From: Fictibacillus solisalsi
Lineage (GTDB): Bacteria; Bacillota; Bacilli; Bacillales; Fictibacillaceae
Assembly (NCBI RefSeq): GCF_900103485.1
Contig: NZ_FNHW01000001.1
Location: forward strand, 717,418 to 781,417
DNA length: 64,000 bases
Reading direction: 5' to 3'
The position numbers and the translations under genes are program-made. Every line of letters begins with the position of its first letter. Positions within the stretch are counted from its first letter, which is position 1. A model generated the notes under the pieces. That model ran no database searches. It was not told where the DNA came from and saw nothing but the letters and a program-made list of their open reading frames with translations. This document shows, piece by piece, positions 46,026-59,620 of this stretch.

Positions 46026-46064
46026 TAACAAATGCTAAATAAAGGTCTAAGGAGGAAATACAAA

Positions 46065-46841
46065 ATGAACCTTTCACTTGAAAATCGTACATATGTGGTC
46101 ATGGGTGTGGCCAATAAACGCAGCATCGCCTGGGGGATCGCCCAAGCTCTATCCAATGCAGGTGCACGCCTGATCTTCACTTATGCTGGAGAACGCCTGG
46201 AGAAGAATGTAAGAGATCTTGCCGAAAGCTTGGAACGCAAAGATTCCATCGTCCTGCCATGTGACATTACAAATGATGAGGAAATTAAATCTACTTTTGA
46301 ACAAATCAAAAGTGAAGTAGGCGTCATCCATGGACTGGCCCACTGTATTGCTTTCGCGAATACCGATGAATTAAAAGGGGAGTATTTGAATACCACACGA
46401 GAAGGATTCCTTCTTGCACACAACATTTCATCTTATTCATTGACGGCTGTTGCCAAAGAAGCACGCGGACTGATGACAGAAGGAGGAAGCATCGTAACGC
46501 TTACGTATCTTGGAGGAGAGCGTGTTCTCCAAAATTACAACGTTATGGGTGTAGCCAAAGCTTCCCTTGATGCGAGCGTGAAATATCTTGCTAATGACCT
46601 GGGCAAAGATAATATTCGCGTAAATGCCATATCCGCGGGACCAATCCGTACACTCGCGGCAAAAGGAATTGGCGACTTCAACAGCATTTTGAAACAAATT
46701 GAAGAAAAAGCGCCACTCCGCCGCAACACAACACCAGAAGAAGTCGGCGATACCGCACTCTTCCTAATGAGTCATCTTTCAAGAGGCATCACAGGGGAAA
46801 CGATTCATGTGGACAGTGGGTACAGCATTTTAGGAAACTAA
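46065..46841 (+). CDS. fabI: Enoyl-ACP reductase FabI
   Basis: Reduces enoyl-ACP in the last step of fatty-acid elongation and is the triclosan target. The 258-residue SDR has the active-site Tyr148-x9-Tyr158-x6-Lys165 arrangement in LTYLGGERVLQNYNVMGVAK, the family pattern MGVANKRSIAWGIA at the N-terminus, and SAGPIRTLAAKGI. ATG 46065 follows AAGGAGG; the longer frame from 46032 starts without a site and overlaps the leader. Confidence 0.96.
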   Translation: MNLSLENRTYVVMGVANKRSIAWGIAQALSNAGARLIFTYAGERLEKNVRDLAESLERKDSIVLPCDITNDEEIKSTFEQIKSEVGVIHGLAHCIAFANTDELKGEYLNTTREGFLLAHNISSYSLTAVAKEARGLMTEGGSIVTLTYLGGERVLQNYNVMGVAKASLDASVKYLANDLGKDNIRVNAISAGPIRTLAAKGIGDFNSILKQIEEKAPLRRNTTPEEVGDTALFLMSHLSRGITGETIHVDSGYSILGN

Positions 46842-47222
46842 TCCTTGTCATATCTGAATATTTTATTTTTCTGAGTGACAGCCTAGATAAGCGTTTTAAA
46901 AAATCGGTACAGATGCAGAAATATCTTTCACATTTGTGATAATAATTAATCCGCCAGCCAGTATATTGGCTGGTATTTTTTATGATGAATCCTGCAAAAG
47001 AAAGGATAGTTCATAGAAGATCTATCGTAGCCGATCATCAAATGGCAAATTCACTGAAATTTACAGAGCCGATGGATTTTCTTGGCTCCATTTCCTTTGA
47101 TAACAGGACCGGGGTTATGATCGGTTCCTTCCTCCTCCACCAATGGCATCCAATAAACAGGCAAGAATCCGACAGGTATAATAAAGCTTTGGTTTTGATT
47201 TGTTTTTCTCTGTACTATTAAA
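46842..47222. other. 380-base region after fabI without a convincing gene
   Basis: Contains a terminator at 46954-46980 and an open frame from 46982 to 47221 that lacks a ribosome site and resembles nothing I recognise. Nothing else is evident. Confidence 0.5.
46954..46980 (+). terminator. Probable terminator of fabI
   Basis: CCAGCCA (46954-46960) pairs with TGGCTGG (46967-46973), followed by TATTTTTT. It is 110 bases past the stop. Confidence 0.7.
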
Positions 47223-47254
47223 AGAAACTGATTTGACTAGTCAAATCAGTTTCT
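47223..47254 (-). terminator. Perfect 32-base palindrome, terminator-like
   Basis: Positions 47223-47254 read the same on both strands, with centre ACTAGT and arms from AGAAACTGATTTGAC. It directly follows the stop of the minus-strand gene at 47262 and leads into TTTT on that strand. Confidence 0.75.
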
Positions 47255-47261
47255 GGTTGTA

Positions 47262-47483
47262 TTAAGCTACTACCACTCGGAAGCCTTCGATTTTTCGGCA
47301 GTCCAAAATTAATGGATTGTTTCCGTCAGCAAATTCTACACAACAATTTTCTGAGTCACCACAACCGCCTATAAAAATTAAATTAGCAAATTCCAAGCCA
47401 CTTAATATTACATCAACTGTTGTACCACTTGCTAGTTTTCGAAGCCGCTTGCATATGCAACTGTCACAATGATTCTTTCCCAT
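47262..47483 (-). CDS. Cys-rich small protein, spore-surface candidate
   Basis: A 73-residue protein with seven Cys residues, clustered as CDSCIC near the N-terminus and CGDSENCC in the middle. The rest reads as a small beta barrel (TTVDVILSGLEFANLIFIGG, PLILDCRKIEGFRVVV), like an SH3/Sm-type fold. AAGGAGAG precedes the ATG. Cys clusters are common in cross-linked coat/crust proteins, and the locus after fabI carries the Cys-rich CotY/CotZ genes in B. subtilis, but I cannot show homology. Function unknown. Confidence 0.6.
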   Translation of the reverse strand: MGKNHCDSCICKRLRKLASGTTVDVILSGLEFANLIFIGGCGDSENCCVEFADGNNPLILDCRKIEGFRVVVA

Positions 47484-47638
47484 ATTTACTCGCTCTCCTT
47501 AAATATAAATTCCCCTGAAAAAAATCAGGTTTCTATACTATATTGATGTGGACAAACTTTTGCATATGTTATCTCCTATTTTTTACAAAATGGGGCTGTA
47601 ACTCATAGTTTTTCCTGGAGTATTAATGGTTCGTCCAA

Positions 47639-47665
47639 ACCAATTCCTATTTTTTTCATATATAA
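47639..47665 (+). promoter_or_regulatory. Candidate SigK-type promoter
   Basis: AAC-C at 47638-47641 supplies a -35-like AC (47639-47640), then 16 bases and CATATATAA (47657-47665), one base off CATANNNTA. The leader to the next gene would be about 45 bases. Confidence 0.4.
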
Positions 47666-47715
47666 ATAAAAGAGAGATTTAAAGGCTCTCACTATCAAGG
47701 AAAAGAGGTAGGGAA

Positions 47716-47919
47716 ATGGCAGCAAGCACACGAATGGCACGTTTTAGACAGTTAAAAGGAGTTCTCCTAACTGAGCTTATTTGTACGTCTGGCGTTTCGT
47801 TTTTAAATGTGGTCGTTACTGAAGTCGGAAGACAATACATTGTTGTCACGCAGGAAGGTTCCGGTGGCGCTGGTACCTTTGTTGTTAACATTGATAATGT
47901 TGTTGCGGCAAATATGTGA
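47716..47919 (+). CDS. Small beta-rich protein, spore-surface candidate
   Basis: A 67-residue protein. After a short basic start (MAASTRMARFRQLKG) it is nearly all predicted beta strand (VLLTELICTSGVSFLNVVV, GRQYIVVTQ, GTFVVNIDNVVAANM) with a Gly-rich turn. This suggests a small SH3-like barrel related in style to the divergent neighbour at 47262. AAAAGAGGTAGG precedes the ATG. A clear terminator follows. No family is recognised. Confidence 0.6.
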   Translation: MAASTRMARFRQLKGVLLTELICTSGVSFLNVVVTEVGRQYIVVTQEGSGGAGTFVVNIDNVVAANM

Positions 47920-47925
47920 CCAAAT

Positions 47926-47950
47926 GACTCCAACTCTGTTGGAGTCTTTC
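47926..47950 (+). terminator. Terminator before the cgeB-like gene
   Basis: GACTCCAAC (47926-47934) pairs with GTTGGAGTC (47938-47946), followed by TTTC. It may be partial, since no promoter is evident before the next gene. Confidence 0.8.
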
Positions 47951-47991
47951 TACGGATTAAAGAATGAGGAGGAATTAAAACGCTAAAGGTA

Positions 47992-48906
47992 TTGTTTATT
48001 ACAAAGAATCATGAACATTATATTGAAAAAAGCAGTTTCTATTTACAAGAAGAACTGGCCAGGAAGTGCCATCTGGCTGTCTGGGAATTTGATGGCAAAT
48101 TATCAGACATTCTCCTTCAGCTTCCGTTTCAGCCTGATTTTATTCTTGTCAATGATCTAAAGCCGGATTATAGTCCGCTCATATGGGGATTAAAAGAATC
48201 TCCTGTACCGTATGGAATCATCTTCCACGATTTGCAATACAAGATCTACCGCAGAAAACAATTTATTGAAAAGGAAAACATTCGAACCATTTTTTCAGTA
48301 TACCGTGATCCGTTCAAAAAATGGTATCCGGAATACACGGATCGAATGATTTGGCTCCCGCATCATGTAAATATAAACATTTATAAAGATTATCAACTGC
48401 CTAAAGAAATTTCCTGGCTTATGGCAGGATCTTTAAATCCTCATTTATATCCTTTTCGCACCCTGATGCATCATTTCTTAAAGAATGAGAAAGCGTTTGT
48501 CAGTTATGCCCATCCTGGATACCGTAATGTTATTGATGAGAATGGCTGGCTGCTTGGTGAACGTTACGCGAAGGAAATTAACCGTTCAAAGATGCTGCTT
48601 ACCTGTGATTCTGTTTATCGATTTCCAGTTTTAAAGTACTTTGAGGCAGCGGCATGCAAAACGTTGGTTCTTGGTCCTTCCTCAAAAGAACTTGAAGCTC
48701 TTGGTTTTATTGACGGACAGACGTTCATTTCAGTATCAGAACATGATTTTAAAGAAAAGTCCATGTATTATCTTAACGATAAGGAAGCGAGAGAAAGCAT
48801 TGCCGAGAAAGGATACAACATGGTAAGAGAAAGGCACTCGACAGAAGTTCGTGTCCACCAGTTATTAACATATATTGAGGAAATTGTGAGGCGATCCAAT
48901 GGTTAA
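47992..48906 (+). CDS. CgeB-like glycosyltransferase, copy 1
   Basis: A 304-residue protein resembling the CgeB / spore-maturation group of GT-B glycosyltransferases. It has a HDLQYKIYRRKQFI segment, WLPHHVNINIYKDY, and the C-terminal YAKEINRSKMLLTC and LKYFEAAACKTLVLGP. Copy 2 at 49848 is clearly paralogous. CgeB is linked to the B. subtilis spore crust. The start is uncertain: TTG 47992 is 18 bases from GAGGAGG, whereas ACG 47980 would give a normal distance and restore a LKVLFITKN first strand. The gene ends inside the next one. Confidence 0.75.
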   Translation: MFITKNHEHYIEKSSFYLQEELARKCHLAVWEFDGKLSDILLQLPFQPDFILVNDLKPDYSPLIWGLKESPVPYGIIFHDLQYKIYRRKQFIEKENIRTIFSVYRDPFKKWYPEYTDRMIWLPHHVNINIYKDYQLPKEISWLMAGSLNPHLYPFRTLMHHFLKNEKAFVSYAHPGYRNVIDENGWLLGERYAKEINRSKMLLTCDSVYRFPVLKYFEAAACKTLVLGPSSKELEALGFIDGQTFISVSEHDFKEKSMYYLNDKEARESIAEKGYNMVRERHSTEVRVHQLLTYIEEIVRRSNG

Positions 48907-49663
48907 AAAGGTTTCAATTATTATCCCTTTTTATAACTGTCCATACGTTGGCCAGGCTATAGAAAGTGCAATAAACCAAACACACCAGTCGGTAGAAGTG
49001 ATCGTGGTGAATGATGGTTCAACAAAATATACAGAAGGGATTTCACCTTATCTAGATCGGATTATTTATATCGAAAAACCAAACGGAGGTACAGCAAGCG
49101 CTTTAAACAAAGGGATTCAAAACATGACCGGTGACTATTTCTGCTGGTTGAGCTCAGATGATGTTTTTTATACCGAAAAAGCAGAAGTTCAATTAAAGAA
49201 AATGAATGAGATGAACTCACCTGTAAGCTATACCAATTACTATCCAATAGACGAAAATGGGGAAATATTCGCTCCTCTTCAAGGGGTTTATGTTGAAGGA
49301 CGTATTCCATTTCTTCAAAGGATGCAAATTGGAAATATCATTAACGGCTGTTCCGTCATGATTGACCGAAATATTTTTAAAGAAATTGGTATGTTTGATG
49401 AGAGTCTTCCATTTACTCACGATTATGATCTCTGGCTGCGCATCTTGCATAAATATGAATTCCTTTATATACCAGAGCCATTATTAAATTATCGGGTACA
49501 TCAGGAGATGGGTACTAAAAAGCATGCACATGAGATTAGTGCAGAAATAAGAAAAGTACAGCAGCGGCATTCCGCATCGATGAAACTCTTATTTTCTCTG
49601 GAAGAAAGATATTCAGGAGCGATTAAAATACGTCCACAGCCGATTAATAGGCGGATTTATTAA
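48899..49663 (+). CDS. Family-2 glycosyltransferase
   Basis: A 254-residue GT-A enzyme. It has VSIIIPFYNCPYVGQAIES at the N-terminus, VIVVNDGS, an Asp-Asp metal/nucleotide site in WLSSDDVFY, and the acceptor-side DYDLWLRILHKYEF. It has no membrane segment. ATG 48899 overlaps the preceding gene by eight bases, so the two are translationally linked. The donor and acceptor sugars are unknown; the context suggests a spore-surface glycan. Confidence 0.88.
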   Translation: MVKKVSIIIPFYNCPYVGQAIESAINQTHQSVEVIVVNDGSTKYTEGISPYLDRIIYIEKPNGGTASALNKGIQNMTGDYFCWLSSDDVFYTEKAEVQLKKMNEMNSPVSYTNYYPIDENGEIFAPLQGVYVEGRIPFLQRMQIGNIINGCSVMIDRNIFKEIGMFDESLPFTHDYDLWLRILHKYEFLYIPEPLLNYRVHQEMGTKKHAHEISAEIRKVQQRHSASMKLLFSLEERYSGAIKIRPQPINRRIY

Positions 49664-49683
49664 CACGAAGGAGCGTGTCCATA

Positions 49684-49851
49684 ATGAAAAAGAAAAATAT
49701 AGTCTTTCATGAAACATTGATCACAAAAAAAAGACCGTCGCATGTTTCATGGACACCACTCAGTGATATTATGGATGACGGAGCTTTCAGGATCAGGGAA
49801 ATCCACCATTGCCCATACTATGGAAAAAAGAGAGCTGTTCACCCTTGTTGA
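49684..49851 (+). CDS. 55-residue small protein between glycosyltransferases
   Basis: A small gene with AAGGAG before ATG 49684, 20 bases after the GT2. The protein is basic (MKKKNIVFHETLITKKRPS) and ends in HHCPYYGKKRAVHPC, with Cys and His near the end. Its stop (TGA) overlaps an in-frame TTG of the next gene as TTGA, which would couple translation. No family recognised. It could be a coupling leader or a real small protein. Confidence 0.5.
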   Translation: MKKKNIVFHETLITKKRPSHVSWTPLSDIMDDGAFRIREIHHCPYYGKKRAVHPC

Positions 49852-50819
49852 TTAGACGTCATCAATATCAAAAAACTCCCGGCGATTGTAAATTAACTAT
49901 TTTATGCATTACCCGGGATCGTTCACAGCAGATGGAAAAAAGCAGCTATTATCTTATGGAAGAGTTAAAAAAACATTGTAACCTTGTTATGTGGACAGAA
50001 AACGGCCATATTCAAAGGATTTTATCACACCTTTCAATTACCCCTGATTTTATATTGATGAATGACTTTCTCGATCCCCGATTGTGTCCTTCTATACACG
50101 GTTTAAACAGTGTAGATATCCCTAAAGGCATGATTTACCATGATATTTCATATGAGTTGGAAATCCGGAAACGATACGCAATAACAGAAAGAATTGACTG
50201 CGTTTTTACTCATTACCGTGACGCCTTTCTCAAATGGTATCCTGAGTTATCCGAACGAATGATTTGGCTTCCTCATCATGCCAACCCGGATGTGTACAAA
50301 GATTATCATCTGCCAAAAACGATTAACTGGCTGATTATGGGAGCGTTATTGCCCCACATCTATCCTCTAAGAGTCATAATGTTAAATACGATGAAAAACT
50401 ATCCCGGTTTTGTCCATCATGGCCATCCTGGTTATACCACAGTACAAAATATAGCTAATGGAACATTAATTGGAGAAGAGTATGCGAAGGAAATCAACCG
50501 TTCGAAAATCTTTTTAACTTGTAATTCAGTTTACGAGTATACCTTAATGAAATATTTTGAAGTCATGGCGTGCAAATCATTGCTGCTAGCACCTGAGAGC
50601 AAGGAAACGGCCGATCTTGGAATGATTAATGGTGTTCATTTTGTAGCCGTCGACCGCTATGATTTTTTGGAAAAAGCTCAATATTATTTAGCCAACGATG
50701 AAGAACGTGAACACATTATAAATAACGGTTATCAATTGGTTATGGCCGCCCACACAACTCAAATGCGGGCTTTGGAGCTTATTTCACACATAGAAAAAAT
50801 GATTAAAAAAAATGTTTAG
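49848..50819 (+). CDS. CgeB-like glycosyltransferase, copy 2
   Basis: Paralogue of the gene at 47992: EKSSYYLMEELKKHC, MIWLPHHANPDVYKDYHLPK and EYAKEINRSKIFLTCNSVY align closely with copy 1. The first strand is KLTILCITRDR, and this supports a longer N-terminus in copy 1. No ATG or GTG is available at the front; TTG 49848 overlaps the upstream small gene's stop and is my choice, while TTG 49809 is an alternative. Probable sugar transfer onto a spore-surface glycan or glycoprotein. Confidence 0.75.
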   Translation: MIRRHQYQKTPGDCKLTILCITRDRSQQMEKSSYYLMEELKKHCNLVMWTENGHIQRILSHLSITPDFILMNDFLDPRLCPSIHGLNSVDIPKGMIYHDISYELEIRKRYAITERIDCVFTHYRDAFLKWYPELSERMIWLPHHANPDVYKDYHLPKTINWLIMGALLPHIYPLRVIMLNTMKNYPGFVHHGHPGYTTVQNIANGTLIGEEYAKEINRSKIFLTCNSVYEYTLMKYFEVMACKSLLLAPESKETADLGMINGVHFVAVDRYDFLEKAQYYLANDEEREHIINNGYQLVMAAHTTQMRALELISHIEKMIKKNV

Positions 50820-50916
50820 CAGATTTTTAGACTTCCATGAGACTTGTCTATTCATTTTCATTTGATTTTCATAGAGTATTAGAGCAAATTTAATTTGCGA
50901 ATGAAAGGAGAAGTCT

Positions 50917-51999
50917 ATGAAGATTCTTACTATTCTTGGAACACGGCCAGAAATTATAAGATTAAGCCTTATTATTAGAAAACTTGATCTTTTGGCAGGC
51001 AAGCATATCATTGTTCATACAGGACAGAACTTTACGTATTCATTAAGTGATGTTTTTTTCAAAGAACTTGGCATAAGAAATCCAGATTATGTGATCAGTG
51101 AAAAAAAACAAACGGTCGGCGAGCAGCTCTCTGTAATGTTCAGGGAGATTGAAAAAGTATTAATAAAAGAAAAGCCTGATAAGGTTTTGGTGCTGGGTGA
51201 TACCAACAGTGCACTTGGAGCAGTGATCGCTGAAAGACTGGATATACCGGTTTATCACATGGAGGCAGGCAACCGATGCTTCGATTGGAGAGTGCCTGAA
51301 GAAAAGAACAGGAAGATCATTGACGCAGTTTCCAGTTTTAATCTACCTTATACTCCAAAGAGCAGGGAGAACCTGATGAGGGAAGGCGTTCCTGTTCAGC
51401 GGATATTTGTTTCCGGTAACCCAATTTATGAGGTTCTTTCTTTTTACAAAGAGGCCATTGATAACAGCAACATTCTGAACGAATGTTCTCTGGAAAAAAA
51501 TAATTATTTTTTAGCCACGATTCACAGGGCGGAAAATGTGGATGATCCTTATCATTTAAAAGAAATATTCGAAGGGCTAAACCAGGTCGCGGATACATTT
51601 GGCAAGAGAATGATCGTCAGTATTCATCCGCGAACCAAGTCCAAACTTGAAAATAGAACAGATATTCGGATGAGTTCAAAGCTGGAGTTTTATGAGCCAT
51701 TTGGCTTTTTTGACTTTGTCAGCCTGGAGAAGAACGCCTTCTGTGTGCTGACAGACAGCGGAACCGTTCAAGAGGAATGTTGTATTTTTCATGTTCCAAC
51801 CGTAACGGTCCGGAAAACAACTGAAAGGCCGGAAACAGTTGAATGCGGAAGTAATATAGTGTCAGGGCTTCAATCCGAACCCATTTTACGTGCAGTAAAA
51901 GTAATGGCCGGACAGCCTGCATCCTGGGTAATTCCTGAAGGCTATGATGATCCGCTCGTATCAGATAAAGTTGTGAAATACCTATTAGGAGGAAGGTAA
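50917..51999 (+). CDS. UDP-sugar 2-epimerase, FnlC/CapG/WbvD type
   Basis: A 360-residue non-hydrolysing UDP-N-acetyl-sugar 2-epimerase. ILGTRPEIIRLS, VLGDTNSALGA and HMEAGNRCFDWRVPEEKNRK are visible. The last motif marks the FnlC/CapG/WbvD branch, which acts on 6-deoxy L-sugars, and differs from the HVEAGLRTGD form of MnaA/WecB. AAAGGAGAAG precedes the ATG. It heads a tightly packed cassette of four nucleotide-sugar genes (to 54677). Confidence 0.85.
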   Translation: MKILTILGTRPEIIRLSLIIRKLDLLAGKHIIVHTGQNFTYSLSDVFFKELGIRNPDYVISEKKQTVGEQLSVMFREIEKVLIKEKPDKVLVLGDTNSALGAVIAERLDIPVYHMEAGNRCFDWRVPEEKNRKIIDAVSSFNLPYTPKSRENLMREGVPVQRIFVSGNPIYEVLSFYKEAIDNSNILNECSLEKNNYFLATIHRAENVDDPYHLKEIFEGLNQVADTFGKRMIVSIHPRTKSKLENRTDIRMSSKLEFYEPFGFFDFVSLEKNAFCVLTDSGTVQEECCIFHVPTVTVRKTTERPETVECGSNIVSGLQSEPILRAVKVMAGQPASWVIPEGYDDPLVSDKVVKYLLGGR

Positions 52000-52001
52000 A
52001 A

Positions 52002-52988
52002 TTGTTTAACAAGAGGATTTTAATTACTGGAGGTACAGGTTCATGGGGTTATGAACTCGTAAAACAATTGTTGCAGAAGCAGCCAAAAGAAATACGGATA
52101 TTGTCGCGAAATGAAGCCAGCCAAGTTGCCATGCAGCGGCAATTTGACCATGATCCAAGGCTTGTGTTCATGATTGGTGACATCAGGGACCGTCAGGCCA
52201 TTGACAACGCAAGCGCAAATGTAGATTATGTATATCATCTTGCAGCATTAAAACATGTTCCCATATGTGAACACCAGCCATATGAAGCGTTAAAGACCAA
52301 TGTATATGGAACCCAGAATGTGATCGAGGCCGCAATTGCCAATAAAGTAAAAAAAGTAATCTATATTTCCACTGATAAATCGGCAAATCCTGCCAATTTT
52401 TATGGAATGACGAAGGCGATCGGTGAAAAGCTCATCATTCATGCTAATCTATTGAGCGAACATACAAAGTTCGTTTGTGTCAGAGGCGGGAATGTGCTGG
52501 GAACGAATGGAAGTGTCATTCATGTGTTCAAGGACCATATTGAAAAAAAAGGTATGATTGGGATAACTGACCGAGGAATGACCCGTTTCTTTTTAACCCT
52601 GCAAGATGCTATTAAGCTTCTGTTTAAGGCAACGTATGAAAGCCAGGGTGGGGAAATTTTCGTGATGAAAATGCCTACCTGCAAAATCCTTGATCTTGCT
52701 AAAGTACTCATCTCCCATTCAGGAAAAAAAGCCGTGGGAATTCATGAACTCGGAATCCGTCCAGGCGAGAAGATGCATGAAATCCTTCTTTCCGAATATG
52801 AAAGCATTACGACTGTTTATTTTGATGAAGAGTATTTTGTTATTTTGCCAACCATCGAAATTAAAGGGTTAAATGAATATTATGCAGACTACAAAAAAGT
52901 AGAGTTGGAGAGCTACAGCTCCAGCGAAGATTTGATGTCCCAAGAAGAGATTCGTGAAATGCTGAAAAAGGGTGGCTTCATTGAATGA
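52002..52988 (+). CDS. UDP-GlcNAc 4,6-dehydratase (5-epimerising), CapE/FnlA/PseB-like SDR
   Basis: A 328-residue extended SDR with the TGGTGSWGYELVKQL loop, STDKSANPANFYGMTK (active-site Tyr-x3-Lys present) and the C-terminal IRPGEKMHEILLSEYE and YFVILP. These enzymes convert UDP-GlcNAc to a UDP-4-keto-6-deoxy sugar, often inverting C5. CapE/FnlA forms usually have Met in place of the Tyr, so this one keeps a PseB-like active site. The TTG start follows AGGAGG, two bases after the epimerase stop. Confidence 0.82.
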   Translation: MFNKRILITGGTGSWGYELVKQLLQKQPKEIRILSRNEASQVAMQRQFDHDPRLVFMIGDIRDRQAIDNASANVDYVYHLAALKHVPICEHQPYEALKTNVYGTQNVIEAAIANKVKKVIYISTDKSANPANFYGMTKAIGEKLIIHANLLSEHTKFVCVRGGNVLGTNGSVIHVFKDHIEKKGMIGITDRGMTRFFLTLQDAIKLLFKATYESQGGEIFVMKMPTCKILDLAKVLISHSGKKAVGIHELGIRPGEKMHEILLSEYESITTVYFDEEYFVILPTIEIKGLNEYYADYKKVELESYSSSEDLMSQEEIREMLKKGGFIE

Positions 52989-53812
52989 AACTCTTAGTCT
53001 TGGGAGGCGCTGGGATGGCAGGCCATGTAATGTATCACTATTTCAAACAGAAAAAACAATACAAGGTGTTTTCTACAACAAGAAGGGGAACTGACGACTC
53101 TCTTTTTTTCGATGCTAAAAATGAATCGCAGCTCGAACAAATCCTTTTCTCCATTAAGCCTGATATTGTTATTAATTGCATTGGGATATTGAACGATCAA
53201 GCTGCAAAGCATCCCTTAGAAGCTATACAGGTAAATAGTTTGCTCCCTCACAAAATTGTGTCTATATTAGAAAAAACAGGTGGCAAATTAATTCATATCA
53301 GTACAGACTGTGTTTTTTCGGGTGAGAAGGGCGACTACAGTGAAAAGGATATTCCCGATGGCACCTCTATTTATGCGCGAACAAAAATACTTGGTGAGAT
53401 CAACTCTCCGAATCATCTTACAATACGAACCTCAATTATAGGCCCTGAACTCAAAGAAGGTATTGGCCTTTTCCAATGGTTTATGGCTCAAAAAGGAAAA
53501 GTAAATGGTTACAAAAAGGTATATTGGAATGGGGTCACTACCCTTGAACTGGCAAAAGCCGTTGAAACTGCTATTGAACAAAAGATTTCAGGATTATACC
53601 ATCTGACAGCTCCTTCTAAAATCTCCAAGTACGAACTCCTTCACCTCTTTCAGAATGTCTTTTCTAAATATGATACAGAAATATTGCCTTGCGACGAATT
53701 TGAGATTGACCGGACATTAACATGTACTCGAAAAGATTTTACCTATAACGTGCCTTCCTATATTGAGATGCTTGAAGAATTAAAAGGCTGGATTTCTTAT
53801 CGTGCAAACTAA
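52985..53812 (+). CDS. RmlD/WbvR-type 4-keto-sugar reductase
   Basis: A 275-residue SDR of the RmlD (dTDP-4-dehydrorhamnose reductase) type. LVLGGAGMAGHVMYHYF binds the nucleotide cofactor; ISTDCVFSGEKGDYSE and SIYARTKILGE (Tyr-x3-Lys) follow. It lacks the cupin domain of the CapF/FnlB type, which suggests a WbvR-like enzyme that makes UDP-L-RhaNAc from the 4-keto intermediate. ATG overlaps the preceding stop as ATGA. Confidence 0.82.
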   Translation: MKLLVLGGAGMAGHVMYHYFKQKKQYKVFSTTRRGTDDSLFFDAKNESQLEQILFSIKPDIVINCIGILNDQAAKHPLEAIQVNSLLPHKIVSILEKTGGKLIHISTDCVFSGEKGDYSEKDIPDGTSIYARTKILGEINSPNHLTIRTSIIGPELKEGIGLFQWFMAQKGKVNGYKKVYWNGVTTLELAKAVETAIEQKISGLYHLTAPSKISKYELLHLFQNVFSKYDTEILPCDEFEIDRTLTCTRKDFTYNVPSYIEMLEELKGWISYRAN

Positions 53813-54677
53813 AAAGAAATTGCTGATTACCGGAGCAGGTGGATATACAGGATTGCACGCAAGCCGTTACTTTTCAGACAAAGGATGGGATATTTTGTGT
53901 GTATCACGTTCCGCGGGGGTGTCATGCGATATAACTGATGCCGGAAAACTGGAAACGCTAGTTTCTGATTACTGCCCTGATTACTGCCTTCATTTGGCAG
54001 CCGTCAATTCAGTTCCTGTATCCTGGACATCTCCTCAAACCTCAATAGCCGTAAATGTGATGGGGACTCTTCATTTATTTGAAGCCATAAGAAAATTTGC
54101 CCCTGGTTGCAGAATTGTCGTTACTGGCTCCATTCTCGAAAAAAACCTTCAATCAGAAGAGCTCCCGCCTCATCCATATAGCCTGAGCAAATCATTTCAG
54201 ACCCTGTTATCAAGATCATGGACATCTTTTTATGGTATGGATATCATCGTGGCGAAGCCATGTAATTTGATTGGACCGGGATCCTCCACGGGAATTTGTT
54301 CCCTGTTAGTAAAGAAAATTATAGACATCGAGCAAAATAAAGCTGAAAATCAAATCCTCCTAAATAATCCGAACAGCACTCGTGAATTTCTCGATGTTAG
54401 AGATGCTGTTTCTGCCTATGAGGTTTTGTTCGAAAAGGGTCAAAAAGGGAGCAGTTATGAAATTGGATCAGGGATCAGACGTTCATTAGGCGAGGTTCTA
54501 GACGAGCTCGAAAACCATACTGCCATCAAGTTAAATATCATTTCTCACCCCCTTTCAGCTGTAGATCACTTTTTTACACAGGATCTTAAACCCATAAAAG
54601 ACTTAGGATGGGAACCTGCCCTTTCATTTTCTAAGTCTATATCCGATGTATTTCACTATTATAGAACGGAACATTAA
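53802..54677 (+). CDS. NAD-dependent sugar epimerase/dehydratase
   Basis: A 291-residue extended SDR with ITGAGGYTGLHASRYF, a catalytic HPYSLSKSFQ (Tyr-x3-Lys present) and NSTREFLDVRDAVSAYEVL typical of GDP-4-keto-6-deoxymannose reductase or epimerase relatives. Start GTG 53802 overlaps the upstream stop; its ribosome site is weak. As the last gene of the cassette it may act on the sugar made by the preceding three genes or on another nucleotide sugar; the substrate is unknown. Confidence 0.75.
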   Translation: MQTKKKLLITGAGGYTGLHASRYFSDKGWDILCVSRSAGVSCDITDAGKLETLVSDYCPDYCLHLAAVNSVPVSWTSPQTSIAVNVMGTLHLFEAIRKFAPGCRIVVTGSILEKNLQSEELPPHPYSLSKSFQTLLSRSWTSFYGMDIIVAKPCNLIGPGSSTGICSLLVKKIIDIEQNKAENQILLNNPNSTREFLDVRDAVSAYEVLFEKGQKGSSYEIGSGIRRSLGEVLDELENHTAIKLNIISHPLSAVDHFFTQDLKPIKDLGWEPALSFSKSISDVFHYYRTEH

Positions 54678-54760
54678 AGAGAAGTTACTTCAAGCTAACG
54701 TAATCGTTAGTTAGAGTGTAATATATGTGTTTAAATATTCTTTTGTTGTGGGACAGAAGA

Positions 54761-55857
54761 AGAGGCTGTCCAAAAGTCTCTAAAATGAAAGCAGGAAGGA
54801 AAAAAACGACTCGTTTTTCCTTCCTGCTTTTCTTCGTTGTTCATTTTTGTTGAAAGCAGCCAGGAGGATGACTGCTACTTTCAGTAGATTGTGGCAATCT
54901 GTACAATCTTCGCATTCATCAATCTTGAAGCTTTGTGCCAGACCGGATCGGTTCTTTTCGTTAGCTAGTTCTTAATGGTATGCCATTTGGACAGATAAAA
55001 TAATCATCGAGTTTCTCATACACACATTCTTTGCGTTCCTTACATCATTTTTATATGTCGGATTTTCCTTCAAATAGCTTCCATAAGGAATAAGAAAATC
55101 AAATAGCGGTTCCTTTTCTTCTCCTCCTGCAAACAAATAGTGTTCTTTACTGCCATAACCGGCATCCGCAATCACGGTTTTCGGCTCGGTAAAGAAGGCC
55201 CCGCCAGTTTCTCCAAGTGAGGGATGAAACACTGCGTGTGGCCGGCTTTGGTGAATCAATAAAACGAAACGTTCTCTGCCGCCATCTGTATGTTGTATCC
55301 TGGTTTCAGCTTGCCGTTCTTCATATGGTCTTCCTTTCATTCGCATAGAAGTCCCGTAGGTGTATGTTTTTGCGTAATTGTTCCGATCTCTGAACTGTTC
55401 GTTCTGATTCTTATATTTTGCTAAACAAGGCAAGACAAGAAATCTTGACGAATCAACTTCAGGGGTTCCTTGTAGGTACTGCACTTCTGTTACGTTTCTC
55501 GGTATCCGTTTCCTTCCCAACGCTTCTCAATGAGTGAAGCTGTTGATGTGGTACAGCGTTTCTTGAATTTTTCTTTCAAATTCGCTTCATGTTTAAGGGC
55601 GATTTTTTCCAAACGAAAGAATACTTGTTGGCATACGTTTCGATCTTTGTGTCATCCGAAAAGTAGTGATCCATCGCAATTTACACGTCTTGAAGAGTTT
55701 CCTGCTGTTTCAAACAACTCATCCATCAATGCTTTCATCGGTTGGCTGAGAAAATTATTCCAAGTTCGGAAGAATCATTTTTTTATATTTTTTAATACTA
55801 TTAAAAAAAGGGCTGCCAGAAAGTCAGTATACACTGACTTTCTGGACAGCCCCTTTT
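54761..55857 (-). mobile_element. Decayed IS1182-type insertion sequence
   Basis: Terminal inverted repeats share GGCTGTCCA and an AAAGTC core (left end 54761-54780, right end 55834-55853). A 14-base-stem hairpin sits just inside the left end (54791-54804 with 54814-54827), and the right end folds on itself (55810-55853). About 1.1 kb long, shorter than a full IS1182 (about 1.6 kb), so it is internally deleted. Transposase remains are on the minus strand with frameshifts. It lies between the nucleotide-sugar cassette and the minus-strand spore genes. Confidence 0.8.
54960..55770 (-). pseudogene. IS1182-family transposase remnant
   Basis: Pieces of an IS1182 transposase appear in different minus-strand frames: YFSDDTKIETYANKYSFVWK near 55680, MKNGKLKPGYNIQMAAENV near 55300, and KTVIADAGYGSKEHYLFAGG near 55170. 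They are interrupted by frameshifts and stops, and the N-terminal third is missing. It cannot make an active transposase. Confidence 0.82.
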
Positions 55858-55858
55858 T
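55806..55858. terminator. Long A/T-flanked hairpin at the IS right end
   Basis: An A-run leads into GGGCTG...CAGT (from 55810), which pairs across a short loop with ACTG...CAGCCC (ending 55852), followed by seven T. It can stop transcription from either side and would isolate the flanking operons. Confidence 0.7.
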
Positions 55859-55887
55859 TATTTAAAAGCCTCTATTCAGAAAAAGTA

Positions 55888-56301
55888 TTAGAACCTGGTA
55901 GTCGCAATGCCAGAAAAGGTGATGGGACCTGTAATTAAGGCATTATTCAGCAGATTAGAGTTTACAAGCTCTGCGGTTATTGAATAGGCATAGTTGCTTC
56001 CGACCGGAACATTTAGATCAATCGCCTGGAAAGTCACGGTTGCATTTTGGGCGACAGAGAGCTGAAGTTCAGTTACCGTGGAAAAGATGATACCTGTATC
56101 TCGGTATATTTTAAATAGCACAGTAGGATTTCCTAACGAAGCACTGATACCTACCGTTGCATTCAAGATTACTCTGTTGTCGGGAGCAGGAATACTTAAA
56201 CCGAATGCTGCCAGTTTAATAGGAGTGGAAGGAACGTTAATATTTAAAGAACCACTGGAATCAGTGGGTACGCTTGAACCAGACCCTAGATAGGTTGGCA
56301 T
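55888..56301 (-). CDS. ExsC-like beta-rich spore surface protein
   Basis: A 137-residue protein, almost all predicted beta strand, rich in Asn, Ser, Thr and Val with no Cys. RVILNATVGISASLGNPTVL and KIYRDTGIIFSTVTEL resemble exosporium protein C-type proteins (recognised from memory, not aligned). AAGGAGG is eight bases before ATG 56301, and a SigK-like -10 lies close upstream. A structural protein of the spore outer layer is the best reading; a phage-tail-like jelly roll is an alternative. Confidence 0.55.
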   Translation of the reverse strand: MPTYLGSGSSVPTDSSGSLNINVPSTPIKLAAFGLSIPAPDNRVILNATVGISASLGNPTVLFKIYRDTGIIFSTVTELQLSVAQNATVTFQAIDLNVPVGSNYAYSITAELVNSNLLNNALITGPITFSGIATTRF

Positions 56302-56331
56302 AACAATCACCTCCTTTCTATTAGTTTATGT

Positions 56332-56340
56332 AATAGATTA
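56332..56340 (-). promoter_or_regulatory. SigK-like -10 element ahead of the ExsC-like gene
   Basis: CATAAACTA on the minus strand matches CATANNNTA. No AC occurs at the expected 16-17 bases upstream, so this is only a partial match. Confidence 0.3.
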
Positions 56341-56379
56341 AGAGGTGATTGTGTGTTTAACTCTATAAAAATATATTTT

Positions 56380-57450
56380 TTAATAGATTCCAAGAGAACG
56401 CAGCATCGCAGTAAAGCGCATGGCGTATTGCGACGGTAAAAAATTCTGCTGTACATGTGCATATGCGTTTCTTTTTATACGTTGGCTGATCACAGGATTT
56501 TCGAGAAGTTCCAATGCTTCCTTAATTCCTGCATGAAGATCATGAACAGGGAAATGTTTGCCTGTACGGTCATGGATAATAAAACTTTTTGTCCCGTCTG
56601 AATCTGTACATAATACCGGACATCGGCAGCACATTGCCTCTAGAACAGCATAACCAAATCCTTCTACTTTCGATGTTGACAGCAAAAAACCTCCAGAGTC
56701 CCCGATTTGTGAATAATAATCAGGCATTTTCCCATGGGGAATATTATCAAAAAAGGTGATGGAATCCTGAAGTCCCATATTGTGAATGCACGTAGTAAAG
56801 TTTTCTTGTTCTTCCTTTTTTACTACAGAAAGGTCTAAAAACATCCATAATTGGAGATGCGTATAGGTTTTTTTAAGATCATGGACGATAGCAAGGCAAT
56901 CTTTCCAATTTTTGTTATCCTCAATCCTGCCGACCCAGCCGATGACCGGATAGGAAATCTTCGGCATTTTATGGTGGCGGAAGGTCTGAGTATCAATGCA
57001 ATTATGAAAGCAGTAATGAGGTATATCTGGATAATATTTATTAGATAGCTCGATAATATGGGGAGTTCTGGGGATGAGAATTGCGTCTGCATGATTTACT
57101 ACATAAGGGAGACTTCCCAGGAACCATTGTTCAGCAGCGGCAAGACCTCCAAGCCCCTGAACTTCATAAATAACCTTGCCTTTATACCCCCATTGTTTCA
57201 GCTTTGAGACAAGAGGAAAGTGCGAACAGATTAAAACGGCATCATATTCATTTTCAAAAATAATCCGCTGAATCTCGTCTTCTTCTTCAGTGAGAAAAGT
57301 TGTTTCATCTTTAATATTTTGCAGTCCGGGACCTTCCCAAAAGTAAAGGAAATGAAAGGATATTCCATATCGCTGTAAGGCTTTGCTCCGCTGTCTGGCA
57401 AGCGTTTCCACTCCACCACTCGGGTAATAATAAATAAATAATATTTTCAT
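56380..57450 (-). CDS. Family-4 glycosyltransferase
   Basis: A 356-residue GT-B enzyme that begins MKILFIYYYPSGGVET and has VIGWVGRIEDNKNWKD, a central glycosyltransferase-1 motif. The KVEGFGYAVLEAMCCRCPVL segment follows, in which the Glu-x7-Glu nucleotide-sugar site is typical of retaining GT4 enzymes. ATG 57450 follows AGAAGGGAG. It is third in the subtilase, sulfotransferase, GT4 operon (22-base gap). Substrates unknown. Confidence 0.85.
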   Translation of the reverse strand: MKILFIYYYPSGGVETLARQRSKALQRYGISFHFLYFWEGPGLQNIKDETTFLTEEEDEIQRIIFENEYDAVLICSHFPLVSKLKQWGYKGKVIYEVQGLGGLAAAEQWFLGSLPYVVNHADAILIPRTPHIIELSNKYYPDIPHYCFHNCIDTQTFRHHKMPKISYPVIGWVGRIEDNKNWKDCLAIVHDLKKTYTHLQLWMFLDLSVVKKEEQENFTTCIHNMGLQDSITFFDNIPHGKMPDYYSQIGDSGGFLLSTSKVEGFGYAVLEAMCCRCPVLCTDSDGTKSFIIHDRTGKHFPVHDLHAGIKEALELLENPVISQRIKRNAYAHVQQNFLPSQYAMRFTAMLRSLGIY

Positions 57451-57472
57451 TATGGACTCCCTTCTGAATAAA

Positions 57473-58258
57473 TTACCAGCTGTAATCATGTTCATAGCCG
57501 GAACGAATAAGTAAATCACCTGCTTTTTCTTTGAAGATTTGTTTAATCAATCCATCAAATTCATTATTCCACGAGCCGATTTTTCCTGAACGGAAGGTTG
57601 CCGAAGATTGGGGATTAATATTTCCAATCATATACTCTAGCATTTCTTCCTTAGAAACTAGTGAAACTATATCCCCGTATAAATAGTTAACAATTCTCGA
57701 TAGAGTTTCTTTTCGATCCTCTTCGTTTCTGATTAAATCCTCAAAGCGTACATGTAAGGTGTCTTCATCTTCAAGCCATCGATAGAACCGTGACATATAC
57801 GTTTGAAAATCCGGCCAACGTGGAGTTCCATATAATAAAGTAATCAATTTCAGTTTTACAGTCATTTCAGGGGAGTTAAAAAGGGTATGCAAAGGATGTT
57901 CAGACCAGTTCTTCCCAATGAAATATGCAAGTGAGACCAGGACATCTCTTGGATCCCTATATAGGAAGATGTGTTTCATTTGTAAAGATTGAAGAATATC
58001 AGCATATTCCTTTGTATAAAACACATGTCCAAGCCCAAATTCATTTGCTTTAAGCTCGGTTAAGCGGAAATGGTGGTCTCTATACAATTCCAGAAAAAAT
58101 TCAGGCTTCTGGGTGATGGTATCAAAAAAAAATTTCTTTTTTCCGTTTTGGATATCCATGGAGATCCCTGGAATTCCATTTAAAATTTGATGAAGCATAT
58201 GAGTCCCGCTTTTCGGAACTGAGGTCATTAGAAACGGAGGCAAAGACGTATTGGTCAT
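57473..58258 (-). CDS. PAPS-dependent sulfotransferase
   Basis: A 261-residue cytoplasmic sulfotransferase. The 5'-phosphosulfate loop PKSGTH (15-20), the 3'-phosphate motif YRDPRDVLVSLAYF (from Tyr100, with Arg101 and Ser109), and the C-terminal RSGKIGSWNNEF match the cytosolic sulfotransferase family. It would transfer sulfate from PAPS to a hydroxyl or amine, here most likely on a glycan or glycolipid. It lies 9 bases from the subtilase and 22 from the GT4. Sulfotransferases are uncommon in Bacillus, which makes this locus notable. Confidence 0.87.
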   Translation of the reverse strand: MTNTSLPPFLMTSVPKSGTHMLHQILNGIPGISMDIQNGKKKFFFDTITQKPEFFLELYRDHHFRLTELKANEFGLGHVFYTKEYADILQSLQMKHIFLYRDPRDVLVSLAYFIGKNWSEHPLHTLFNSPEMTVKLKLITLLYGTPRWPDFQTYMSRFYRWLEDEDTLHVRFEDLIRNEEDRKETLSRIVNYLYGDIVSLVSKEEMLEYMIGNINPQSSATFRSGKIGSWNNEFDGLIKQIFKEKAGDLLIRSGYEHDYSW

Positions 58259-58267
58259 AAATGTATA

Positions 58268-59491
58268 TTACTCCTTAACTTTTATTGAAAATAAATGTTT
58301 CAGGTTAAAGCAATCTCCTTTGTTCGCTCCAACCATTGCCAAACGCATATATTTTTGAACAGCCTCGGGTTTTAACGGGGGATACGCCTGTAATAATAGG
58401 GCAGCGGTTCCGGAACAGAATCCGGCAGCGATGGAAGAACCGGAGAGTGAAATATAATCTGAGTTTAGTACAAAGGGTTCAAGCTGTTTTGCAAGGATGG
58501 AATTGGGCGATAGAGGCCCAGCAATGCTAAGACCCGGGAATAGGAAATCCGGTTTATCAAACCCTGAAATATTGGAGAGGACACTTGTGAAAATACTGCT
58601 AACCACTGGGCTTGTTTCAGATGTTTCTCTGTCATTTACTGCACCAGCGGCAATGACAAAAGGATGATGAGCGGGGGAAATGATAGTTCCGCCAGACGAA
58701 ACATTATCCACTGCAGTAGAAACTACTATACCTGATTCAACGGCAAGAGCTGCTGAAACACTTAAAGGGTCATAGTGGCGAGCTTCCTGCTGGATGGCCA
58801 GCCCTAATGAAAGATTTATAATTCTGATATTATGCTTTTGTTGATGCTGAATGCAATAATCGATTCCTGCCATAACAGATGACATAAAACCAACTCCGTT
58901 TTTATCCAATACTTTGATGCCCAAGAGATTAGCTTTAGGAGCAAGTCCCGCATAATTCCCCTTTGAAGCAAAACCATTCCCGGCTATACACCCGGAAATG
59001 TGCGTCCCATGCCCGTTATCATCATACGGCTGAGAAATGCCATTGACAAAGTCTTTAAATTCTTTTATACGGTTTACAGGATTTGTGAAATCTGGATGGG
59101 GGAAAATTCCTGTGTCCAGAACAGCAATGGTAACTCCTTCACCTGTCAAACCATGTTCTTTATAGATATAATCTGCGTTCATTGTTATTTTGGCTTTGTT
59201 ACAGAAGGCATATAAAAGACGATCTAGATAGAGACCTTCGACTTCAGAAAGGGATGAAATAATACGTATTGTTTCTAAAGATAGTTGACCGCTAATAAAA
59301 GGTAAGTTGGCGTATTGGTATTTTATAACGTCATGGGCAGGAGATAGAAGGCGATGCAATTGATCTGGTGATTGGGGGTTTTTCATCTTTATAATGACTG
59401 GAACTGATTCATCATTTGAATCTGTCAATGTCAACAGGTGCTCAATGAGGGATTGATCCATTTTATGATTGAATTGTGTATGGCCGTCCAT
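58268..59491 (-). CDS. Subtilase-family serine protease, first gene of a SigK-type operon
   Basis: A 407-residue S8 peptidase. The triad is Asp126 (AVLDTGIF), His161 (DNGHGTHISG) and Ser353 (LSGSSIAAGF), with Asn263 in the oxyanion position. Residues about 30-95 look like an I9-type propeptide. No signal peptide is present, so it acts in the cytoplasm or in the mother cell. ATG 59491 follows GGAAGG. An AprX-like comparison is possible, but the spore promoter suggests maturation of coat or exosporium proteins. Confidence 0.88.
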   Translation of the reverse strand: MDGHTQFNHKMDQSLIEHLLTLTDSNDESVPVIIKMKNPQSPDQLHRLLSPAHDVIKYQYANLPFISGQLSLETIRIISSLSEVEGLYLDRLLYAFCNKAKITMNADYIYKEHGLTGEGVTIAVLDTGIFPHPDFTNPVNRIKEFKDFVNGISQPYDDNGHGTHISGCIAGNGFASKGNYAGLAPKANLLGIKVLDKNGVGFMSSVMAGIDYCIQHQQKHNIRIINLSLGLAIQQEARHYDPLSVSAALAVESGIVVSTAVDNVSSGGTIISPAHHPFVIAAGAVNDRETSETSPVVSSIFTSVLSNISGFDKPDFLFPGLSIAGPLSPNSILAKQLEPFVLNSDYISLSGSSIAAGFCSGTAALLLQAYPPLKPEAVQKYMRLAMVGANKGDCFNLKHLFSIKVKE

Positions 59492-59537
59492 TAAACCTTC
59501 CTTCCTCAAAGATTTTTTTCCTGCGTTTTGCATACTA

Positions 59538-59566
59538 TATCATATGAAACTGTAAGAAGAATTGTA
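59538..59566 (-). promoter_or_regulatory. SigK-type promoter of the subtilase-sulfotransferase-GT4 operon
   Basis: On the minus strand AC (59565-59564, in TACA), exactly 17 bases, and CATATGATA (59546-59538) match the SigK consensus AC-N17-CATANNNTA fully. The predicted start lies about 40 bases before the subtilase ATG. Confidence 0.7.
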
Positions 59567-59620
59567 TAGGGACTTGTTTATAAATAGGGCTTTCGCGGCA
59601 GAAAAATAGCCGAACAAATA

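Follow-up and report, generated by a model that had tools for sequence, protein, structure and literature searches.

Within a 64,000-nucleotide stretch of the Fictibacillus solisalsi genome (the window), genes for a subtilase, a PAPS-type sulfotransferase and a GT4 glycosyltransferase lie on the minus strand. They are separated by gaps of 9 nt (58259-58267, subtilase/sulfotransferase) and 22 nt (57451-57472, sulfotransferase/GT4). A sequence-only reading of the window had described this tight packing and an exact AC-N17-CATATGATA promoter match ahead of it, and the coordinates bear out both. The subtilase start adopted here is RBS-supported; the longest open reading frame opens at 59533. A fourth same-strand gene that was absent from the earlier account, P0004, lies 78 nt downstream of the GT4 gene. 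The operon forms the right end of an accessory island downstream of fabI, with the following features.

46032-46841, plus strand: fabI, left anchor of the locus (NF006369, 473.9 bits)
47155-59544, no strand: accessory island, about 12.4 kb (blastn against L167 of genome G004, L169 of G002 and L170 of G006)
47992-48906, plus strand: glycosyltransferase (Pfam Glyco_trans_1_2)
48899-49663, plus strand: GT2 glycosyltransferase (Pfam), with a sulfotransferase-fused relative in F. gelatini
49809-50819, plus strand: glycosyltransferase (Pfam Glyco_trans_1_2)
50870-50878, plus strand: -10 box CATAGAGTA, lying 38 nt ahead of the sugar-nucleotide operon and lacking AC at -35 spacing
50917-51999, plus strand: UDP-GlcNAc 2-epimerase-like enzyme, FnlC-labelled (TIGR00236, 287.5 bits, above cut-off)
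52002-52988, plus strand: UDP-sugar 4,6-dehydratase-like enzyme, FnlA-labelled (PseB 322 and FnlA 252 bits, both below cut-off)
52985-53812, plus strand: RmlD-like reductase, FnlB-labelled (TIGR01214, 98 bits, below cut-off)
53802-54677, plus strand: SDR family sugar-nucleotide enzyme (NCBIfam matches below cut-off only)
about 55810-55853, minus strand: hairpin and T-tract after P0004, probable terminator (55791-55890 folds at -45.2 kcal/mol)
55888-56301, minus strand: P0004, 137 aa, predicted TNF/C1q-like jelly-roll, homologues in sulfotransferase loci
56322-56330, minus strand: -10 box CATAAACTA, 20 nt before P0004, no AC at 16-18 nt
56380-57450, minus strand: GT4 glycosyltransferase, 356 aa (Pfam Glycos_transf_1, 5.5e-22)
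57473-58258, minus strand: PAPS-type sulfotransferase, 261 aa (Pfam Sulfotransfer_1, 2.9e-15; SULT profile and fold matches)
58268-59491, minus strand: subtilase (S8), 407 aa, AprX-like paralogue (Pfam PF00082 Peptidase_S8, 3.5e-37)
59538-59565, minus strand: SigK-like promoter AC-N17-CATATGATA, box end 46 nt 5' of the subtilase start

The accessory island and its neighbourhood

The island ends are approximate and vary by sister genome (left 46998-47155, right 59544-59612). Its flanks are contiguous in three of the six same-genus genomes compared, none of which has the sulfotransferase; fabI is present in all seven genomes of the genus, F. solisalsi included. FabI occurs in 6 of 25 loci, not counting a seventh labelled match (L077) at 25% identity. 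The island falls within a 31-kb stretch bounded by fabI and by the sole spore coat gene of BMQ_0737 type in the genome (NF052457, window-equivalent position 78124, 140 bits against a cut-off of 71). Through this gene the locus shows the linkage to a coat or exosporium structural gene that is expected of a spore-surface glycan locus. BMQ_0737 itself has reportedly been found in the exosporium of Priestia megaterium; a gene of its family flanks the window locus. The crust locus of Bacillus subtilis, whose order we take to be fabI-cotO-cotZYXWV, occupies the same neighbourhood 3' of fabI, but in F. solisalsi the glycan genes stand in that place. The CotX and CotZ families (PF07552, PF10612) were each found in 0 of 1 F. 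solisalsi genome, which does not fit a B. subtilis-type crust. In the same-genus genome G005, the corresponding stretch contains a Coat_X protein.

An assignment of the sugar-nucleotide enzymes to FnlABC (UDP-L-FucNAc pathway) was rejected because two of the three miss their cut-offs, FnlA scoring 252 against 730 bits; only the 2-epimerase (TIGR00236) exceeds its own. A Pfam scan of the open reading frame at 54972-55520 gave no match. Small Cys-rich proteins likewise went unmatched, in Pfam for the copies of the window, L063, L068 and L064 and in NCBIfam for those of the window, L063 and L168:17222-17503.

The B. subtilis sps locus, a glycan pathway that yields legionaminic acid and is needed for the outermost spore layer (crust), resembles the window locus in combining sugar-nucleotide enzymes with glycosyltransferases (PMC7439481). 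Unlike sps, the window locus has a 2-epimerase/dehydratase/reductase trio and a sulfotransferase. The string 'sulf' occurs twice in the main text of the sps paper, both times in reagent names, and is absent from the main text of PMC4674009, which cites the BMQ_0737 paper. The earlier remark that a sulfated crust or exosporium glycan is not established agrees with searches of the open-access literature, which listed no such report.

The sulfotransferase, its partners and PAPS supply

Profile, fold and alignment comparisons gave the sulfotransferase SULT-type active-site residues and a SULT-type predicted fold. Both PAPS-binding motifs noticed in the sequence-only reading are indeed kept (VPKSGTH and RDPRDVLVS). 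The 5'-phosphosulfate loop PKSGT reads PKSGTH, and its K16 is invariant in all 13 alignment rows, as are H78, R101, S109, R223 and G225. H78 corresponds to the catalytic His of SULTs, and R101 and S109 to the 3'-phosphate Arg and Ser. The profile could be aligned to 1aqu across the PKSGT-loop Lys and the His, Arg and Ser positions. The third SULT loop (RKGxxGxW) reads FRSGKIGSW, retaining R223 and G225 with the K of RKG changed to S. Fold and PAPS-binding residues are common to the window protein and cytosolic SULTs (1aqu, 5x2b), although identity in the fold alignments is only about 13-21% and many of the latter use small molecules.

An alignment-based scan confirmed at least 246 relatives, 80 of which, many from Chloroflexi MAGs, were retained; a single-protein scan for named relatives yielded 39 stretches, all unconfirmed. 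The family is not spore-specific, since members at about 28-35% identity occur, among the matches listed, in Chloroflexi MAGs and others. The first tree, drawn without L061 (which is the window itself) or the two pieces of the split L052 gene, puts the window copy in no supported group. Across Bacillales, relatives recur in comparable loci adjoining sugar-nucleotide genes, and a related sulfotransferase locus (L079) lies in a P. megaterium-labelled genome. In Fictibacillus and Pseudalkalibacillus the family also has members that sit apart from glycan genes. Decayed copies were also seen, one split by a stop (L052 in G030) and one a remnant with several stops (G018). Glycosyltransferase-sulfotransferase fusions exist in two architectures; in F. 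gelatini the fused GT2 is 60% identical over 227 aa to the 48899-49663 product.

GT4 relatives (about 39-51% identity) adjoin related sulfotransferases in other loci, and P0004 relatives adjoin in 4 of 4 loci having the closest sulfotransferases and sugar genes. The P0004 AlphaFold model (pLDDT 82.5) gave the BC2L-C lectin domain as its top Foldseek match (6.7e-6); a PDB sequence search found no match at E up to 1. By sequence comparison, the recurrent partners are the sulfotransferase, the GT4 enzyme and the TNF-like P0004. The hairpin at 55810-55853 was not among the picks of a simple terminator scan.

The subtilase has the Asp/His/Ser motifs of S8 peptidases (DTGI, NGHGTH, SGSSIA; PF00082 at residues 117-383), aligned with those of 3afg and of a second, AprX-like S8 copy in the same genome that is 38-39% identical. 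It is putatively cytoplasmic, as judged by eye. The best match among the other 59 genomes (E <=1e-30) had 45% identity over 309 residues and AprX-like length. No match (E 1e-8) was found in L063, L064, L180 and L195, the loci with the closest sulfotransferases, GT4 and TNF-like genes. These comparisons make the subtilase an unlikely core partner, and the candidacy was dropped; the functional partnership proposed by the sequence-only reading is not supported. Most likely the protein, which looks like an AprX-type paralogue, joined this transcript locally and lies outside the core module.

The earlier suggestion that PAPS synthesis genes be sought led to a single APS kinase and a single ATP sulfurylase, near each other in the genome at C4:2.59 Mb. 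A dedicated APS kinase was sought in the island and is absent there, the nearest being 1.8 Mb away. Relatives were surveyed in the 23 genomes with any sulfotransferase match (14 linked, 9 non-linked), linked meaning at least one sugar-trio gene in the same fetched stretch. An APS kinase (E <1e-50) lay within 12 kb of the linked sulfotransferase in 11 of 14 genomes against 0.13 expected, assuming 4.2 Mb per genome, and within 12 kb of non-linked copies in 0 of 9. In these counts G013 was included on its dehydratase alone, G030 with its stop-split sulfotransferase and G018 by its intact copy; the G024 copy lies at a contig end. The neighbouring APS kinase is the sole strong match in G007, G012, G014 and G030, and several sulfotransferase loci also hold ATP sulfurylase and transporters of the SLC13 or TauE type.

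Putative mother-cell-type promoters

The exact box ahead of the subtilase is ACAATTCTTCTTACAGTTTCATATGATA, read 59565-59538 on the minus strand; it also conforms to the SigK-regulon sequence AC-N16-18-CATANNNTA. The pattern is not rare window-wide (three matches against 1.48 expected, with at least three in 19 of 100 shuffles); any one 100-nt leader would contain a match by chance with a probability of about 0.001. Within the window the full SigK box stands at the subtilase promoter only, the sugar operon and P0004 showing the -10 alone. The operon-less sister genomes G002 and G004 also have the -35 half of the subtilase promoter, with CATTAT at the -10. In a -10 comparison of 35 selected loci, 49 rows when the window is counted in, the CATAAACTA 9-mer also precedes the Scopulibacillus P0004 homologue. 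The SigK gene of F. solisalsi scores over its cut-off.

The CATANNNTA -10 box was found in 43 of 118 island leaders and 28 of 289 others in a first set (shuffle means 8.2 and 17.0), and in 14 of 24 against 7 of 95 in a later set; the leaders and genomes compared are related, and the later set has kin of the first (L180 is close to L064; L182 and L058 are of the same genus). The full AC-N16-18 box was enriched in the first set (15/118 versus 6/289, p 4e-5) and not significantly so in the later one (3/24 versus 3/95, p 0.096). An initial SigK test had scored 14 of 116 leaders of cluster genes and 6 of the 274 compared with them; a relaxed box scored 32 of 118 and 30 of 289 in the first set. For the first set, 10 repeat loci had been merged by hand beforehand, leaving 46; the later set used 13 of 19 stretches, the repeats L179, L181, L183, L184, L194 and L196 being left out. 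Comparison leaders in both sets belonged to ORFs of at least 120 aa lacking a cluster label, which may include non-gene ORFs. Cluster genes of trio-less loci and the leaders of fabI, S8 and coatB genes were excluded from both groups. Since the full AC box is enriched in the first set only, SigE and SigK are not separable. The exact box and the -10 enrichment in both sets agree with the description of a SigK-type operon, which is less well supported as to SigK specifically.

Candidate function of the locus

The operon probably represents one end of a locus for a sulfated spore-surface glycan made in the mother cell. Locus position, the coat-gene flank, PAPS genes in relatives, the fusions and the -10 enrichment all favour a role of the sulfotransferase in spore-surface glycan assembly. 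Weighing against the reading are the full SigK box, which is not significant in the later set and in the window stands at the subtilase promoter only, the distance of the APS kinase from the island, the missing CotX and CotZ families, the serine in the third loop, a sulfotransferase family that is not spore-specific, the kinship among the loci compared and the lack of a supported group for the window copy in the first tree. We lean, if slightly, towards a wider reading in which a patchy Bacillales module builds such a glycan during sporulation, with the TNF-like protein as a surface partner. This module would comprise mother-cell sugar-nucleotide genes, glycosyltransferases (some sulfotransferase-fused) and sulfotransferases, to which many genomes would add their own dedicated genes for a sulfate transporter, ATP sulfurylase and APS kinase.

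That the sulfotransferase instead acts on a coat protein (for example on tyrosine, or on P0004) or on a mother-cell small molecule seems unlikely. The closest solved relatives are mostly small-molecule SULTs, their substrates taken partly from entry titles, and the family members standing away from glycan genes and the constant P0004 neighbour suit such a target; the fusions and the repeated linkage to sugar-nucleotide genes favour a glycan acceptor. We consider it very unlikely that the enzyme is inactive or lacks PAPS in the mother cell: the K-to-S change in the RKG loop, the island's lack of an APS kinase and module decay in G030 and G018 would agree with this, but the active-site Lys, His, Arg and Ser are retained and the genome encodes an APS kinase and an ATP sulfurylase.

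It is rather improbable, though compatible with a sulfated spore-surface glycan, that the subtilase forms one functional unit with that glycan by processing a precursor of the coat or exosporium. The 9-nt gap and common promoter speak for such a unit, as do sulfotransferases adjoining S8 genes in Halalkalibacter (L074) and two Fictibacillus-group genomes (L057/L177, L059). These S8 neighbours are only 28-33% identical, however, the other 59 genomes gave no match above 45% identity and the loci with the closest sulfotransferases none at all, and the GTSMA(T)P motif is altered to GSSIAAG in the operon subtilase. An ordinary vegetative capsule or exopolysaccharide, with accidental proximity to coat genes, is doubtful indeed. 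GT2, galE and 4,6-dehydratase genes also serve capsule building and the island is accessory, but the CATANNNTA enrichment in both sets, the BMQ_0737 flank and the Coat_X protein of G005 argue against it.

For a sulfated spore-surface glycan, we propose a pathway based on sequence, motifs, predicted fold, gene linkage, fusions and -10 box enrichment, in which we infer the sulfate acceptor, the timing, the place on the spore and the role of P0004. The locus would be transcribed in the mother cell from SigE/SigK-type promoters. The 2-epimerase, dehydratase and reductase would supply an activated amino-deoxy sugar, from which several GT2/GT4 enzymes would assemble the glycan. The sulfotransferase would then move sulfate from PAPS onto a hydroxyl, either of the glycan or of the lipid-linked intermediate. 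The product would be an acidic polymer, sulfated and located at the spore surface, where P0004 would likely present or bind the glycan.

Since the sulfotransferase lies in a sugar-gene block apparently active in sporulation and many relatives carry sulfate-activating genes within that block, their spores may bear a sulfated sugar coat. Spore-surface glycans govern adhesion, hydrophilicity and spread. If the reading holds, sulfate esters would be a developmental modification of the spore surface, adding strong negative charge hardly removed by pH change, and sulfur metabolism would gain a new use in sporulation through a PAPS pathway of the mother cell. These genes provide a marker list for culturable Fictibacillus, Pseudalkalibacillus and Priestia species.

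Operon layout and its place in the genus

The sequence-only reading had joined a subtilase, a PAPS sulfotransferase and a GT4 glycosyltransferase in one operon behind an AC-N17 box. Gene coordinates bear this arrangement out, with gaps of 9 nt between subtilase and sulfotransferase and 22 nt between sulfotransferase and GT4.

59538-59565, minus strand, AC-N17-CATATGATA box, ending 46 nt upstream of the subtilase start
58268-59491, minus strand, subtilase, RBS-supported start
57473-58258, minus strand, PAPS-type sulfotransferase
56380-57450, minus strand, GT4 glycosyltransferase
55888-56301, minus strand, P0004, a fourth gene 78 nt downstream of GT4

The AC-N17-CATATGATA pattern occurs three times in the window against 1.48 expected, and its chance in one given 100-nt leader is about 0.001. 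P0004 has a CATAAACTA box 20 nt on its 5' side, with AC absent where a -35 would lie. On its 3' side the gene is followed by a strong T-tract hairpin. Between the sugar operon and P0004, an ORF at 54972-55520 (minus strand) looks by eye like a transposase fragment and gave no Pfam match.

In three genomes of the same genus (G002, G004 and G006), a relative of window gene 59705 lies within about 0.7 kb after fabI; relative to these, the window carries about 12.4 kb extra between the two genes, roughly 47155-59544. Three others (G001, G003 and G005) have different sugar genes at the corresponding place, and the G005 stretch holds a GT4, a Coat_X protein and the sugar-nucleotide trio (UDP-GlcNAc 2-epimerase-like, dehydratase and RmlD-like reductase genes) without a sulfotransferase. 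None of the six same-genus genomes gave a sulfotransferase match. G004 and G002 both retain the subtilase promoter's -35 and its spacer, which in G002 contains a short duplication, and both have CATTAT as the -10. These sister promoters can be read in two ways, as the scar of a deletion in G002 and G004 or as marking the edge of an insertion in the window.

The sulfotransferase, its relatives and its partners

A profile built from 13 relatives matched SULT structures across most of their length (1aqu, 6.9e-13). Lys16, His78, Arg101, Ser109, Arg223 and Gly225 are invariant in this alignment and line up with the SULT active site. The predicted model (pLDDT 89) matched SULT7A1 and other SULTs at a query TM of 0.53-0.63; the RKG loop has S in place of K.

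Relatives were found in 23 of the 60 near genomes and, order-wide, in 31/397 genomes and 10/135 genera (E up to 1e-25). A tree with more rows placed the window copy, ungrouped in the first tree, in a supported nine-member clade (100/98) whose other sequences come from Scopulibacillus, Neobacillus mesonae, Paenibacillus sabuli and G376, with two each from Bacillus sp. NTK071 and G096. Four trio loci in this clade (L063, L064, L180 and L195) have GT4 and P0004 relatives as neighbours and gave no subtilase match. Within the same clade, L066 combines a TauE-type transporter gene with those for ATP sulfurylase and APS kinase, none of which was found in L065.

In its predicted model (pLDDT 82.5) P0004 forms a jelly roll of eight strands, nearest to TNF-like lectin and C1q/TNF domains. 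The C-terminal domains of BclA have the same TNF/C1q-like jelly-roll fold.

The subtilase keeps its triad motifs, but its serine motif is altered to GSSIAAG. Its relatives, present in 31/60 genomes including its own (E up to 1e-30), are AprX-like proteins and others of at most 45% identity; a second, AprX-like S8 copy in the window genome is 38-39% identical. With such distant relatives, and no match in the four trio loci of the clade, the proposal that the subtilase is a functional partner processing a coat or exosporium precursor is weakened. S8 genes of other kinds adjoin sulfotransferase genes in Halalkalibacter and two Fictibacillus-group genomes, a weak hint of a subtilase-sulfotransferase association.

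Glycosyltransferase and sulfotransferase are fused in two architectures. Fictibacillus gelatini has a single 490-aa frame joining a relative of the window GT2 at 48899-49663 (60% identity) to a sulfotransferase; the second architecture occurs in Aliibacillus thermotolerans (638 aa) and G213 (662 aa), at 54% mutual identity. The coordinates of these fusion frames are as follows.

L031:7295-8767, glycosyltransferase-sulfotransferase fusion
L086:3696-5612, glycosyltransferase-sulfotransferase fusion
L187:9584-11572, glycosyltransferase-sulfotransferase fusion

In a genome labelled Priestia megaterium, the neighbour of a sulfotransferase is a GT4 relative (L079:8138-9922) whose N-terminal part matches Laminin_G_3.

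Sulfate-activation genes

We surveyed 46 merged Bacillales sulfotransferase loci, of which 25 carry at least one trio gene; the presence of the sulfotransferase in them is no evidence, because the loci were found by it. Among these 25 trio-linked loci, GT4 occurs in 15, APS kinase or ATP sulfurylase in 13, P0004 relatives in 6 and fabI (at least 82% identity) in 6. APS kinase lies within 12 kb of the sulfotransferase in 11 of the 14 genomes with linked copies (0.13 expected) vs 0 of the 9 with other copies, and in G007, G012, G014 and G030 it is the sole strong APS kinase match of the genome. The linked-copy genomes without one inside 12 kb are G038, G053 and the window genome, where a search for PAPS synthesis genes, as the sequence-only reading had proposed, found one ATP sulfurylase/APS kinase pair 1.8 Mb from the island.

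In the Scopulibacillus locus, Pfam matches confirmed all three of ATP sulfurylase, APS kinase and a TauE-family transporter. The best Pfam match of the Aliibacillus transporter is CitMHS, with Na_sulph_symp weaker, so it is a putative sulfate transporter. Among the loci fetched later, L186, L188, L190, L193 and L197 lack the trio but have consecutive genes for ATP sulfurylase, an SLC13-type transporter, APS kinase and the sulfotransferase; they come from five genomes (G207, G255, G298, G337 and G394) that belong to a single genus-level group. The same row of four, a compact set of genes for sulfation, is also seen without the trio at L083. In a Fictibacillus barbaricus-matched locus, ATP sulfurylase is split into two short pieces (L035:6864-7538). 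At G018:C10:2559454-2561703, what remains of a sulfotransferase gene, broken by several stops, lies some 2 kb from an APS kinase, suggesting that the module has been decaying in this species.

Putative mother-cell-type promoters and spore coat genes

CATANNNTA was found in 43/118 island-gene leaders (shuffle mean 8.2) vs 28/289 other leaders (17.0; p 8e-10), and the full SigK box in 15/118 (0.9) vs 6/289 (2.2; p 4e-5). A later set of 13 loci fetched afterwards, five of them trio-linked, repeated the -10 enrichment (14/24 vs 7/95, p 2e-7); this set depends partly on the first, L180 being close kin of L064, and L182 and L058 being of the same genus. The full box was not significant there (3/24 vs 3/95, p 0.096). 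The -10 box is enriched in both sets, the full box significantly so in the first; control by SigK in particular, as the earlier reading had it, is a candidate reading. SigE and SigK have the CATA core in common, and our claim, made from sequence, is therefore limited to mother-cell-type promoters, with SigE and SigK taken together. The window genome has a SigK gene above cut-off (375 vs 298.65 bits); several short SigK-like fragments lie about 4-11 kb from it (G000:C4:1917095-1923418).

The sole BMQ_0737-family spore coat gene of the genome (C4:795541-796203, window-equivalent 78124; 140 bits, cut-off 71) lies about 31 kb from fabI (46032-46841), with many glycan genes in the part read. The family model was applied to this genome and the L068 protein; by BLAST with the latter, homologues occur in at least 8 of the 25 trio-linked loci (stretches of 15-20 kb), a count that includes L074 at only 30% identity. 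Small Cys-rich proteins, some near fabI, are encoded at window 47262-47483 (minus strand), L063:17265-17645, L068:3779-4126 and L168:17222-17761; they gave no family match in the scans made and, judged by eye, are possibly distant CotY/CotZ-type coat proteins.

Searches of the open-access literature, with most papers judged by title and the start of the abstract, yielded no report of sulfation of Bacillales spore-surface glycans. Linkage to PAPS genes, the fusions, the coat-gene flank and the -10 enrichment strengthen, well past the original argument, the idea that this operon may sulfate a spore-surface glycan.
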